From Streptomyces sp. Je 1-332 (lineage in GTDB: Bacteria > Actinomycetota > Actinomycetes > Streptomycetales > Streptomycetaceae), in assembly GCF_040730185.1 (NCBI RefSeq), contig NZ_CP160402.1:5890001-5954000 (forward strand): a stretch of DNA of 64,000 nt, given 5' to 3'. A model generated the notes under the pieces. That model was given only the letters and a program-made list of their open reading frames with translations, did no database searches and was not told the origin of the DNA. Position numbers and translations under genes: made by a program. Positions within the stretch are counted from its first letter, which is position 1. Each line of letters starts with the position of its first letter. Shown here one piece after another: positions 14,043-43,833 of the stretch.

Positions 14043-14984
14043 ATGGCCGTCGTCACGATGCGGGAGCTGCTGGAAAGCGGCGTCCACTTCGGTCACCAGA
14101 CCCGTCGTTGGAACCCGAAGATGAAGCGCTTCATCTTCACGGAGCGCAACGGCATCTACATCATCGACCTGCTCCAGTCGCTGTCGTACATCGACCGCGC
14201 CTACGAGTTCGTCAAGGAGACCGTCGCCCACGGCGGCACGGTCATGTTCGTCGGCACGAAGAAGCAGGCGCAGGAGGCCATCGCCGAGCAGGCGACCCGC
14301 GTCGGCATGCCCTACGTGAACCAGCGCTGGCTGGGCGGCATGCTCACCAACTTCTCGACCGTCTACAAGCGCCTGCAGCGCCTGAAGGAGCTCGAGCAGA
14401 TCGACTTCGAGGATGTGGCCGCGTCCGGCCTCACCAAGAAGGAGCTGCTCGTCCTCTCCCGCGAGAAGGCCAAGCTGGAGAAGACCCTCGGCGGTATCCG
14501 CGAGATGTCCAAGGTGCCCAGCGCCGTCTGGATCGTGGACACCAAGAAGGAGCACATCGCGGTCGGCGAGGCCCGGAAGCTCAACATCCCGGTCGTCGCC
14601 ATCCTCGACACCAACTGTGACCCCGACGAGGTCGACTACAAGATCCCGGGCAACGACGACGCGATCCGCTCCGTCACCCTGCTCACCCGCGTGATCGCCG
14701 ACGCCGTCGCCGAGGGCCTCATCGCCCGTTCCGGCGTGGCCACCGGCGACCAGAAGCCGGGCGAGAAGGCCGCCGGCGAGCCGCTCGCCGAGTGGGAGCG
14801 CGACCTGCTCGAGGGCGACAAGAAGGCTGACGAGCCCAAGGCCGACGAGCCGAAGGCCGCCGAGGCCGAGGCCGAGGTTCAGAAGTCCGCCGAGACGGAG
14901 AAGGCCGCCGACGCCGAGCAGGCCGAGGCCCCCGCCGAGGTTGCCGCCGCCGAGGCCCCCGCCGCGGAGACCGAGCAGGCCTGA
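14043..14984 (+). CDS. rpsB: 30S ribosomal protein S2
   Basis: 313 aa. The S2 signatures [32 protein letters not shown] and [15 protein letters not shown] [13 protein letters not shown] are present. ATG 14043 is preceded by AAGGAG nine bases upstream. The C-terminal 80 residues are a low-complexity Ala/Glu/Lys tail (repeated DEPKA and AEAEA segments) typical of high-GC actinobacteria. It is followed by a hairpin and then tsf. Confidence 0.97.
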
Positions 14985-28187: not shown

Positions 28188-29366
28188 TCAGCCCGCGAGT
28201 GGCAGCGCCGCCAACTCCGCCACCACCCAGGTCAGCGGCCCGAACACGGCCGCGAGTGTGCCTGCCCGCAGTGCGGCGGTGCCGCGCAGCATGGACGCCG
28301 GAGCCCCGAGTTGGAGCAGCGCCGACGTCGTGTCCGAGCGCGCGTGCTTGGCCTCGACCGCGGCCGTGGCCAGGGTCAGTACCGCGCAGCCCGCCACGAG
28401 CAGCGAGCCGAGCGTGGTCAGCGGGCCGACCTCGGGCCGGTTGCCGGAGTAGAGCGTGAGCGCCGCGTACGCCCCGGAGCCGACCACACACAGCACCCCG
28501 AGCGGCCGGCCGATCCGCCGCGCCTCCTCCTGCAGCCCGCGCCCGGCCAGCAGCCGCATCGCTCCGGGCCTGGCCGACTGCAGGATGCGCCCGCACAGGA
28601 ACGTGAGGCCGGGGCCCGCGATGGCGAGGCCGAGCGCGGTGAGCGCCCATCCGGCGAGCACGCCCGCCGGGCTGCCGGTCAGACCGCCCGGCATCCGCAG
28701 GTCCGGAGTCCCGGGCGAGCGGCTCGCGTACGTCTCGACGGCGAGGCCTGCCGCGAGGAGCGCGACTCCCCAGGGAAGCCCGCTCGGCGGGGCCGCCGGT
28801 GCGTTCGGGTCCGCGGGGCCGGCGTGGTGGGCGTCCTGCTTGCCGTTGGACTTCGGGGTGCGGGGCCGCAGTACCGCGGCGCTCCCCGCGGAGGCGGCCA
28901 GTGGGACGAGGGCGAGCAGGGTGAGCGCCGCGGGGAGGGGCAACGGCTGCCCGGCGGCGAGCAGTTCGGACCCGGCGCCGTCGAACGGCAGGCCCGACAG
29001 GTCGCCGCGCAGGTGCAGGAAGAACAGGAGCGCGACCATCGAGCCGAGCGTGCACGCCACCGCCGTGGAGATCGTGGCGAGGACCATGAGCCTTGCCGGA
29101 CCGAGCCCCACCGCCGAGAGCCCGGAGCGCGGCCGGGTCGCCGGGTCGGTGCGCGCGACGGTGACGGCGAAGTACACGGTGGCGGCGATCGGCGCGACGC
29201 ACCAGGCGAGCCGCAGCACGGCTCCGCCGGACGCGTCCGGGTGGCTCATCGCGTAGCCCAGCGTGCACAGGAGAAGGAAGCCGGTGCCGGCCGATGCCCC
29301 GGCGACCAGCAGCCTGCGCAACTGGACCAGGGGATGGGCCCCGCGGGCTAGACGGAGAGCGAGCAC
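28188..29366 (-). CDS. ABC transporter permease-like membrane protein
   Basis: 392 aa from GTG. About nine to ten hydrophobic segments, for example ASAGTGFLLLCTLGYAMSH, ATVYFAVTVA, LMVLATISTAVACTLGSMVA, LPAALTLLALVPLAASAG and VAGCAVLTLATAAVEA. It overlaps the ATPase gene upstream by 19 bases and so is its likely partner. It resembles FtsX/MacB-type permeases only loosely, and no FtsX motif is clear. The substrate is unknown. Confidence 0.75.
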   Translation of the reverse strand: MLALRLARGAHPLVQLRRLLVAGASAGTGFLLLCTLGYAMSHPDASGGAVLRLAWCVAPIAATVYFAVTVARTDPATRPRSGLSAVGLGPARLMVLATISTAVACTLGSMVALLFFLHLRGDLSGLPFDGAGSELLAAGQPLPLPAALTLLALVPLAASAGSAAVLRPRTPKSNGKQDAHHAGPADPNAPAAPPSGLPWGVALLAAGLAVETYASRSPGTPDLRMPGGLTGSPAGVLAGWALTALGLAIAGPGLTFLCGRILQSARPGAMRLLAGRGLQEEARRIGRPLGVLCVVGSGAYAALTLYSGNRPEVGPLTTLGSLLVAGCAVLTLATAAVEAKHARSDTTSALLQLGAPASMLRGTAALRAGTLAAVFGPLTWVVAELAALPLAG

Positions 29367-30859
29367 GCGGCCCGACCTTCCGCGTCGTCGGAATCACCTT
29401 CGGCGGCCGCGGTGCGGGAGCCTGCGGCGGCCGCGGCGCCGGACCTTCCGGCGGCCATGGCCCCGCCTTCGGCGGCCGCGGCGCGGGAGCCCTCGGCGGT
29501 CACGGTGCCGGAGCCTTCGGCCGCCGCTGCGCCGGAGCCTTCGGCGGTCACGGTCCTGGAGCCCCCGGCACCCTCCGTGCCGGAGTCCCCGGCACCCGTG
29601 GTCCCGGAGCCTTTGGGTGCCGCTGGGCGGGAGCCCCCGGCGGTCACGGTCCCGGAGCCTTCGGCAGTTGCTGTGCTGGAACGTCCGGCACCTGCGGTTC
29701 CGGAGCCTTCGACGGCCGCTGTGCGGGAGTCCCCGGCACCCGCGGTTCCGGAGCTTCCGGCGGCCGCTCTACCGAAACCCCCGGCACCCGCTGTATCGGA
29801 ACGTCCGGCACCTGCCATCCCGGAGTCTCCGGCGGCCGCTCTACCGGAGCCCCCGGCGCCTGCGCTCCCGGAGCCTTTGGCCGCCGCTGTGCGGGAGCCT
29901 TCGGCGCCCACGGTCCCGGAGCTCCCAGCACCCGCGGTCCCGGAGCTCCCGGCACCCGCGTCCCCGGACCCCTCGGCCGAGGCACCCGCGTCCCCAGACC
30001 CCTCAGCCAAGGCACCCGCGTCCCCAGACCCCTCGGCCGAGGCATCCGCGTCCCCGGACCCCTCGGCCGAGGCATCCGCGTCCCCGGACCCCTCGGCCAA
30101 GGCACCGCCCGCGGCCTCGGGCGCGCCCCCGCCCGTACCCGCCTCCGCCGCCGCGAGCTCCTCCGAGCCAGGCAGATGCACCGTGTTCACGCGCCTCCCG
30201 TCGAGCAGCGTGATCGTCCGGTCGGCGAGGGCGGCGACCTCTGTGTCGTGTGTGGCGATGACGACCGTGATGCCGTGCGAGCGGGCTGCGGTCGTCAGCG
30301 TGCGCAGGACGTGGGCGCGGTCGGCGCGGTGCAGCGGCGCGGTCGGCTCGTCGGCGAAGATCACGGACGGCATCGTGACCAGGGCGCGGGCGATGGCGAT
30401 GCGCTGGCGCTGGGCCTGGAGCAGCGCGTGCGGCCGCTTGCGGGCGCAGTCACCGATGTCGAGCCGGTCGAGCCACTCCTGGGCCGTGGTCTTGGAGACC
30501 CGGTGCGAGGCGCCGCGCAGCATCAGCGGCATCGCGACGTTCTCCCAGCCCGTGAGCTCGGGCACGAGGTGCGGCTCGGGGTCGATCCAGCCGAAGCGGT
30601 CGCGGCGCAGGCGTTCGCGGATCACCGGGCCCATCGTGTGCACCGGCGTGCTGTTGAACCAGACCTCGCCCTCGTGGGGCAGGAGCTGCCCGGAAAGACA
30701 GCGCAGGAGAGTCGTCTTGCCGCTGCCGCGCGGGCCGGCGACGGCGAGGATCTCGCCCTCGCGGACACCGAGCGATACGCCGGTGAGCGCGGGCGAGCCG
30801 TTGTGTGTGACGTGGAGGGCGCGTGCCCACAGCACGTCGTTGTCCGGCGGGGCCACCAT
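29348..30859 (-). CDS. ABC transporter ATPase with long tandem-repeat tail
   Basis: 503 aa from ATG 30859 (GAGG about 8 bases upstream; GTG 30868 also possible). Residues 10-235 form an ABC domain: Walker A GPRGSGKTT (about 42), Walker B VIFADEP (about 166), H-loop ATHD (about 202). The Q-loop glutamine is replaced (FGWIDPEPH), the signature reads LLQAQRQ instead of LSGGQ, and the D-loop reads APLH. The remaining 250 residues are tandem Gly/Ala/Ser-rich repeats, first 10-residue AEGSGDAxAx units, then 8-residue GSGTAGAG-like units. No known ABC ATPase domain explains the tail. It pairs with the overlapping permease gene. Confidence 0.82.
   Translation of the reverse strand: MVAPPDNDVLWARALHVTHNGSPALTGVSLGVREGEILAVAGPRGSGKTTLLRCLSGQLLPHEGEVWFNSTPVHTMGPVIRERLRRDRFGWIDPEPHLVPELTGWENVAMPLMLRGASHRVSKTTAQEWLDRLDIGDCARKRPHALLQAQRQRIAIARALVTMPSVIFADEPTAPLHRADRAHVLRTLTTAARSHGITVVIATHDTEVAALADRTITLLDGRRVNTVHLPGSEELAAAEAGTGGGAPEAAGGALAEGSGDADASAEGSGDADASAEGSGDAGALAEGSGDAGASAEGSGDAGAGSSGTAGAGSSGTVGAEGSRTAAAKGSGSAGAGGSGRAAAGDSGMAGAGRSDTAGAGGFGRAAAGSSGTAGAGDSRTAAVEGSGTAGAGRSSTATAEGSGTVTAGGSRPAAPKGSGTTGAGDSGTEGAGGSRTVTAEGSGAAAAEGSGTVTAEGSRAAAAEGGAMAAGRSGAAAAAGSRTAAAEGDSDDAEGRAACSLSV
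29400..29951. repeat. 24-bp coding tandem repeat, about 23 degenerate copies
   Basis: Plus-strand units resemble CCGGAGCCTTCGGCGGTCAC plus four bases. The period is 24 bp, so each copy encodes eight residues of the ATPase tail. Copies diverge at several positions, which suggests an old array. All frames lack frequent stops because of the period and composition. Confidence 0.85.
29952..30101. repeat. 30-bp coding tandem repeat, five near-identical copies
   Basis: Five 30-bp units start at 29952, 29982, 30012, 30042 and 30072, each GCAYCCGCGTCCCC followed by RGACCCCTCRGCCRAG. They differ from each other by only a few bases, so this array is young compared with the 24-bp array beside it. Each encodes the ten residues AEGSGDADAS or a close variant. 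Confidence 0.92.
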
Positions 30860-30890
30860 CACGTACACCTCGGTTCAGATCAGTTTGCCT

Positions 30891-43547: not shown

Positions 43548-43620
43548 CCGCCCACCCACTCGATTGCCCGGCGGTGCCGGGTGAGCGGAAGTGCACCGTT
43601 GCGGGGTAATCGGGTGGGTG
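43548..43620. repeat. Imperfect inverted repeat, likely extragenic family
   Basis: CACCCACTCGATTGCCC (43553-43569) is nearly complementary to GGGGTAATCGGGTGGGTG (43603-43620), with one or two mismatches. I recall similar sequence in other Streptomyces intergenic regions. Confidence 0.5.
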
Positions 43621-43631
43621 CGTGGGGAGGA

Positions 43632-43675
43632 GCCGCTGGGTGGGTGGGGAAGAGCCGCTGGGTGGGTGGGGAAGA
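43632..43675. repeat. 22-bp tandem repeat, two exact copies
   Basis: GCCGCTGGGTGGGTGGGGAA plus GA occurs at 43632-43653 and 43654-43675, followed by a third partial GCCGC. Non-coding. Confidence 0.85.
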
Positions 43676-43710
43676 GCCGCCGGGAAGCGGCGTTTTGCGC
43701 GTGGCGCCGC

Positions 43711-43833
43711 TCAAGGTGACGTGGAGGCCCCGCAGAGCCCGCAGCTAGCGGAGCGTTTCCCTGGCCTCCACGGTCAAGGTGGCGTGGAGGCCCGGCAAAC
43801 CCCGCAGCTAGCGGAGCCGTTCCCTGGCCTCCA
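43711..43833. repeat. 63-bp duplication of the NADAR gene 3' end
   Basis: Copy 1 (43711-43773) and copy 2 (43774-43833 and beyond) share TCAAGGTGRCGTGGAGGCCC and GCAGCTAGCGGAGC-TTCCCTGGCCTCCA at about 85-90 percent identity. Copy 2 includes the NADAR stop codon (43808-43810). Each copy is flanked by TGGAGGCC and GGCCTCCA arms and could form a hairpin. Confidence 0.85.

Follow-up and report, generated by a model that had tools for sequence, protein, structure and literature searches.

A repeat-expanded tail between an ABC ATPase domain and a conserved gene overlap in Streptomyces

The window analysed here is a stretch of 64,000 nucleotides from the genome of Streptomyces sp. Je 1-332 (assembly GCF_040730185.1, contig NZ_CP160402.1, positions 5,890,001 to 5,954,000). 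On its minus strand lies a gene for an ABC ATPase with a long tandem-repeat tail, which overlaps the downstream gene (28188-29366), for a predicted permease, by 19 nt. The features of the two genes are as follows, in window coordinates.

30859 (ATG)..29348 (stop), minus strand: ABC ATPase gene, 503 aa (open reading frame, Pfam and orthologue starts)
30338..30787, minus strand: ABC_tran domain (Pfam), residues 28-177 of the 506-aa open reading frame
30578..30580, minus strand: Q-loop position, Pro for Gln (FGWIDPEP); Gln in 0 of 196 family members
30410..30424, minus strand: signature position, LLQAQ for LSGGQ; Gly at the second Gly position in 4 of 196
30329..30340, minus strand: D-loop, APLH where the canonical paralogue L236 has GALD; Asp in 1 of 196, His in 188 of 196
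29390..30169, minus strand: hypervariable linker, 260 residues here and few in the typical orthologue (orthologue comparison)
29951..30106, minus strand: near-identical 30-bp repeats adjoining the ABC domain, 5.2 copies, of AEGSGDADAS type (TRF, in-frame units)
29397..29956, minus strand: diverged 24-bp repeats, about 22-23 copies, consensus AAGGSGTA (TRF, in-frame units)
29389-29351, minus strand: conserved C-terminus DDAEGRAACSLSV (orthologue comparison)
29376..29381, minus strand: GGAAGG, an SD-like site of the permease inside ATPase codons (sequence, locus comparison)
29348..29366, minus strand: 19-nt overlap GTGCTCGCTCTCCGTCTAG, shared by the end of the ATPase (CSLSV-stop) and the opening codons of the permease; geometry identical in 168 of 168 genus loci
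28188..29366, minus strand: permease gene, 392 aa, with several hydrophobic segments, possibly distantly FtsX-like (profile comparison)
28779..28868, minus strand: central hydrophilic loop of the permease, hypervariable (10-296 residues in 144 loci)

The ATPase frame reads unbroken to the stop at 29348. There is an alternative in-frame GTG at 30868 in the same open reading frame; the ATG at 30859 is the start that matches the orthologues, which open with MVAPPD. The match to ABC_tran (PF00005) has an E value of 9.8e-30 and 104.4 bits, against a gathering cut-off of 25. After the ABC domain come the motif DGRRVNTVHLP, a Gly-, Ala-, Ser- and Thr-rich stretch of 260 residues, and DDAEGRAACSLSV. 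The C-terminus is conserved among the orthologues as EGRAACSLS[V/A], and the growth sits between the ABC fold and this end. A sequence-only reading of the same stretch had described a tail of about 230 residues; the tail stands, but the linker is 260 residues long (30169-29390). That reading had also allowed for a frameshift or stop in this strain, to be seen in an alignment of orthologues. The alignment shows neither: the protein runs in frame to EGRAACSLSV. The sequence-only reading made no mention of this conserved end, of the shared stretch with the permease gene or of the degenerate ABC motifs.

According to TRF, the period-24 array has 22.0 copies (29397-29922, 66% matches, score 280) and the period-30 array 5.2 copies (29951-30106, 92% matches, score 263), which are the top two scores among the 25 TRF rows in the window. 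Cut in the ATPase frame, the arrays give 23 units of 24 bp (29956-29405), with a mean identity of 0.75 to their own consensus, and five units of 30 bp, which are much more alike. The lag-24 identity within the 24-bp part is 0.66, compared with a mean of 0.41 and a maximum of 0.47 for codon shuffles (n = 500). TRF, the in-frame units, the unbroken frame and the shuffles thus bear out the earlier description of an ABC ATPase that continues in frame into drifted 24-bp and nearly identical 30-bp repeats. A search of the strain's own genome (E ≤ 1e-5) returned no match to the array outside the array and only a 72-base inverted match inside it, which at that sensitivity rules out a dispersed element. 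Elsewhere in the window, TRF reports, at 43615-43833, a 22-bp repeat of 3.2 copies with 93% matches and, next to it, a pair of 63-bp copies with 90%, and a cluster of short tandem repeats with periods of 12-30 at 14821-14964.

An orthologue, one per genome, was found in 242 of the 246 genomes of the genus that were searched (E ≤ 1e-70). We read 110 loci, including that of the window, picked from the better-scoring matches among the 242, and added by hand 40 more places from an order-wide search, half of them being the most diverged. The locus set comprises 170 distinct loci, namely 169 orthologues and the canonical paralogue L236, which is excluded from the family counts; the loci were chosen from the listed matches and are a non-random sample. 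One orthologue, L026, is truncated by the end of its contig and has at least 322 residues beyond the DGR motif; the remaining 168 have a stop. Measured from the DGR motif, these 168 have a median length of 26 and a minimum of 17 residues; the length is at most 40 in 142 loci, more than 40 in 26, at least 94 in eight and at least 100 in seven. The 284 residues found here are the longest. One orthologous gene thus provides a natural series in which the part beyond a common motif ranges from 17 to more than 300 residues, in line with the length-variable linker that the sequence-only reading had proposed. The typical gene is almost without a linker and, judged against it, in-frame tandem repeats have added about 250 codons in this strain. 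Among the protein matches listed, the best relative is P0001, which is 95% identical in the domain and has a segment of 59 residues that contains the two array flanks and one AEGSG unit; the search covered proteins of about 278-885 residues with 8000 candidates scored, and closer short relatives may have been missed. As proteins 95% identical in the domain differ here by 225 residues, the change in array length must be recent. A scan of named genomes matched generic ABC patterns and was set aside, only two of its 80 loci (L126 and L127, 75-77% identity) being close to the query.

All nine tails of at least 94 residues (L026 included) are periodic beyond every codon shuffle (n = 300), with their strongest lags at 18, 24, 48 or 63 bases, and 17 of the 33 tails tested (>40 residues) reach p ≤ 0.01. 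The repeat units differ among tails (AEGSG, TTSTTS, GGRPTPEA, ADGSTDTS and others). On a tree of 196 domains, 169 from the genus and 27 from other genera, the 17 tails of at least 60 residues call for at least 11 changes between long and short, six of them forced by starred branches, a count that does not separate gain from loss. As read from these sequences, long tails arose repeatedly, with different repeat units. Pooled over 15 tails of at least 60 residues, the hydrophobic share is 4.9% when they are read in the ATPase frame and 9.1-21.6% in the five alternative frames, although the ATPase frame is the least hydrophobic of the six in only 10 of the 15 tails; L292 and L297, in which the start of the tail is unsure, are excluded from these counts and from the SD-like counts given below, but are kept in the tree count. 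We compared 15 orthologue pairs with a domain identity of at least 0.90 (90-97%) and tails of more than 40 residues: pN/pS is 0.34-0.96 in the tail and 0.09-0.25 in the domain, and is higher in the tail in all 15 pairs, although these between-locus values are rough, coming from protein-guided alignments of low-identity repeats. Within the array it is 0.65 in the ATPase frame and 0.61 in an antisense frame, and hence is not frame-specific. The lack of stops in the tails was dropped as evidence, since a tail is defined up to the first in-frame stop and the property holds by construction; the arrival of all 168 genes at one and the same end, with an identical overlap, does carry weight. By these measures the tail is a soluble, weakly constrained segment, and its composition suggests that it is probably disordered. 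The binding surface also suggested by the sequence-only reading finds no support, the tail being poorly conserved even at 90-97% domain identity.

The far end of the tail behaves quite differently. In all 168 genus loci the permease start codon precedes the ATPase stop by 16 nt, independent of tail length; it is GTG in 167 and ATG in one, and the ATPase stop is TAG in 96 and TGA in 72. The permease N-terminus was placed at that start by tblastn in 161 loci, and in the remaining seven (L046, L052, L234, L235, L238, L240 and L241) the open reading frame from that start reads as permease. Just upstream of the start, GAAGG or GGAGG is present in 150 of the 168 loci compared with 1.9% of control windows, and any SD-like 4-5-mer in 164 compared with 14.8%, the controls being 12017 windows from the ABC domains of the same genes. 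The downstream start thus precedes the upstream stop and an SD-like site lies within the upstream gene, as in translationally coupled pairs. The Glu codon at the SD-like site is GAA in 107 of 148 cases, compared with 14.8% of Glu codons in the domains.

The bases of the overlap itself are nearly frozen, including those that are silent in the permease. Permease codons 2 and 4 are CTC in all 168 loci (38% of Leu codons in the ABC domains), codon 3 has T as its last base in 166 (GCT is 1.4% of Ala codons in the domains) and codon 6 is CTA in 96 (0.1% of Leu codons in the domains). As a control, the share of the commonest base in 63 other conserved four-fold columns of 144 permeases has a median of 0.64 and a maximum of 0.88. 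The four ATPase residues that depend on the permease-silent bases are, in order, Ser (all 168 loci), Leu or Val (166 loci, with Pro in two), Ser (all 168) and Val or Ala (167 loci, with Thr in one). Permease codon 7 tracks the ATPase stop, starting with G in the 96 loci with TAG and with A in the 72 with TGA; its first base fits the stop because the overlap requires it to. The near-freezing of permease-silent bases implies that two reading frames, or the RNA, are constrained; the stretch bears the signature of more than one constraint, and selection at the RNA level could also freeze it. No slippery heptamer for programmed frameshifting was seen by eye in the overlap. Growth of the repeats from the hinge (SD) segment was rejected as a general rule (p = 0.82 for the window, with L087 marginal at p = 0.03). 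The best case of hinge copying is L094 (genome G124), whose tail holds a copy, matching at 23 of 24 bases, of the segment preceding the permease start, suggestive of a duplication of the hinge into the linker; 0 of 300 shuffles were as good.

In the 27 loci from other genera, where orthology is assigned by similarity alone, the overlap is 22 nt in three (CSPTSV) and 19 nt in nine. In five others a candidate start precedes the end of the stop by 7-10 nt; this start is clearly that of the permease in L291, plausibly so in L292 and unsure in L282, L283 and L298; four start beyond the ATPase stop (L277, L278, L279 and L293), and the scan found no permease start in six. As only 12 of the 27 keep a 19- or 22-nt overlap, the hinge is dispensable over longer times. 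Eleven of these 12 end in Ser-Val or Ser-Ala (L287 ends in CSAPA), and endings such as CSPTSV, CSTSA, CSASA, CSASV and CPASA occur together with other permease N-termini. An end motif of the C-S/P type is present in 117 of 120 listed protein records, the exceptions being P0053, P0063 (annotated as partial) and P0120 (which ends in SSC). In L277, L278 and L279, all from one other genus, the permease still opens with M-x-Y-L-x-L even though its start follows the stop; L278 has GGA CTC and L279 CGG CTG as codons 5 and 6, unlike the frozen codons of the genus.

The permease has no Pfam hit. None of 30 members tested matches FtsX (PF02687), and the only Pfam hit among them is Got1 in four, with a best E value of 0.036; no solved structural relative was found at E ≤ 1. 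When compared by hhalign with the permease adjacent to L236, a single FtsX-matching protein (E = 4.1e-6), the permease profile aligns over most of its length with a probability of 94.2 and an E value of 1.1e-7. Tail length and permease loop length were compared in 144 loci, and a correlation is supported neither by rank (rho = 0.15, p = 0.08) nor by a Fisher test (p = 0.48). The motif FGAYG or FGAYV occurs in 34 of 144 permeases, and in several long loops (including those of L120, L115 and L073) it lies within a stretch such as GRFGAYG...ETFGAYGRFG.

More surprising, as a feature of the family, is the degenerate ATPase domain. When 196 family members are aligned with the canonical paralogue L236, the Walker A Lys is kept in 193 and the Walker B Asp in 196, followed by Glu in 184 and Asp in 12, and the H-loop His is present in the window protein and in 159. 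As aligned, the family lacks the Q-loop Gln, LSGGQ and the D-loop Asp, while Walker A and Walker B are kept. In ABC dimers, the signature and D-loop elements reach across to the ATP of the partner. Given this layout, the changed motifs correspond to the trans-reaching elements and the kept ones to ATP binding in cis. A possible, if doubtful, reading is that an ATPase that still binds ATP, but would be without the trans-acting elements and the Q-loop Gln at both of its sites, serves as a nucleotide sensor or scaffold instead of a power-stroke motor, or as one half of a heterodimer with a canonical ATPase, and presents a short C-terminal peptide, co-encoded with the permease start, on a freely evolving repeat tether. 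An ATPase that occurs in 242 of the 246 genus genomes searched and has no canonical trans-acting motifs raises the question of how, or whether, it hydrolyses ATP.

For the tail, we consider it reasonably likely that it is a passive, hydrophilic and probably disordered spacer, grown by tandem duplication and kept in frame by its coupled end. The repeats would arise through slippage or unequal recombination. The hinge carries the SD-like site of the permease, its GTG start and the last ATPase codons (CSLS[V/A]-stop); the ribosome would have to stay in the ATPase frame until the stop, which lies 16 nt beyond the permease start, and the permease would be translated through coupled termination-reinitiation, which may keep the ATPase and permease in proportion. 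Growth by other than a multiple of three would be removed, because the ATPase stop would be misplaced relative to the permease start; among the 168 loci there is none in which such growth has moved the stop off the start. The spacer itself would have little or no sequence-specific function. The doubly coded fixed end points to a way in which a bacterial protein can acquire a long flexible tail with the operon unbroken, and with a segment that expands in frame between a folded domain and a doubly coded overlap, the neutrality of the tail becomes directly testable.

Part of the same evidence can be read in other ways. The motif CSLS[V/A] might be a docking or recognition peptide with the hypervariable segment as its flexible tether, which would explain why the four bases that are free in the permease frame give near-invariant ATPase residues across the 168 loci and why the Ser-Val or Ser-Ala end persists in 11 of the 12 overlap loci of other genera despite other permease N-termini. 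However, the GTG start and the C after it leave no choice but Cys, some proteins of other genera end in ...C, ...CS or quite differently, so that the motif is not needed family-wide, and an RNA-level constraint could account for the overlap too; we think a tethered motif unlikely. Selection on the tail as a low-complexity region whose length matters, for binding, condensates or regulation, is improbable. It would fit the recurrence of independent length changes on the tree, the depletion of hydrophobic residues in the pooled tails and the hypervariable loop that the permease has of its own, and the disordered linker of the Mycobacterium tuberculosis ABC transporter Rv1747 is said to phase-separate in the excerpt of PMC13257379 that was consulted. 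It fits poorly with long tails that have no common sequence and a varied composition (lags of 24 or 48 recur, but so do 18 and 63), with a pN/pS above that of the domain in every pair, with the 142 of 168 loci that have at most 40 residues and with the absence of a clear correlation between tail and loop lengths.

An effect at the level of translation, with SD-like purine runs in the repeats slowing ribosomes or acting as decoys and so adjusting permease output, is very improbable. The 15 long tails do contain 165 SD-like 4-mers compared with 141.2 expected from synonymous shuffles (sd 7.3), but the window tail has 30 compared with 30.4 expected, and the z values of 1.9-2.9 in six tails (L026, L087, L094, L264, L280 and L291) are inflated, as repeats copy one unit and the sites within a tail are non-independent. 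That the tail is untranslated in a decaying gene, or that the array is an assembly or annotation error, is extremely unlikely: although the codon usage of the tail is atypical (third-position GC of 0.78, compared with 0.94 in the ABC domain), the genome is in a single contig with a completeness of 100, periodic tails of at least 94 residues occur in eight or more further loci, and the conserved C-terminus past the array is intact and in frame. None of these readings displaces the passive spacer as our preferred explanation.

Searches of an open-access collection of papers brought up no recognisable account of this gene pair, nor of a Streptomyces ABC ATPase that carries a tail of this kind. 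The closest known ATPases are those of the LolD, MacB, YtrE and FtsE types (TIGR02211, TIGR02673; PDB entries 7arh, 9o9x and 5lj9). LolD is the best NCBIfam match (residues 27-225), but at 148.1 bits compared with a cut-off of 307.75, and FtsE gives 139 compared with 264.85, which places the ATPase in neither equivalog. Rv1281c ranks first among its solved relatives, with YtrE and LolD also high. As in these types, the ATPase gene adjoins a gene for a membrane protein; unlike them, the ATPase lacks the Q-loop Gln, LSGGQ and the D-loop Asp and has a long repeat tail, and its partner permease belongs to no Pfam family. This partner may have a remote similarity to the FtsX-like permeases (PF02687), by way of the permease adjacent to L236; a direct match is absent.

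The arrangement of the genes has its nearest parallel in translationally coupled pairs such as drrAB of Streptomyces peucetius, an ABC pair described as such in the consulted part of PMC3711429; termination-reinitiation at gene overlaps is established elsewhere, according to excerpts of PMC6728339 and PMC10666635. In such pairs too, the start of the second gene precedes the stop of the first, with an SD-like site in the first gene, and the partners are likely to act in one complex, as may be the case here. The overlap described here differs in being 19 nt rather than the common 4 or 1 nt, nearly frozen, and placed after a hypervariable repeat spacer; the excerpt of PMC10666635 gives overlaps of about 10-60 nt as several times rarer than short ones. 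The linker of Rv1747, as presented in the excerpt of PMC13257379, is likewise a low-complexity segment outside the ABC fold, whereas the spacer here lies between a stand-alone ATPase domain and an overlap hinge and appears to grow by tandem units that differ from one lineage to another.
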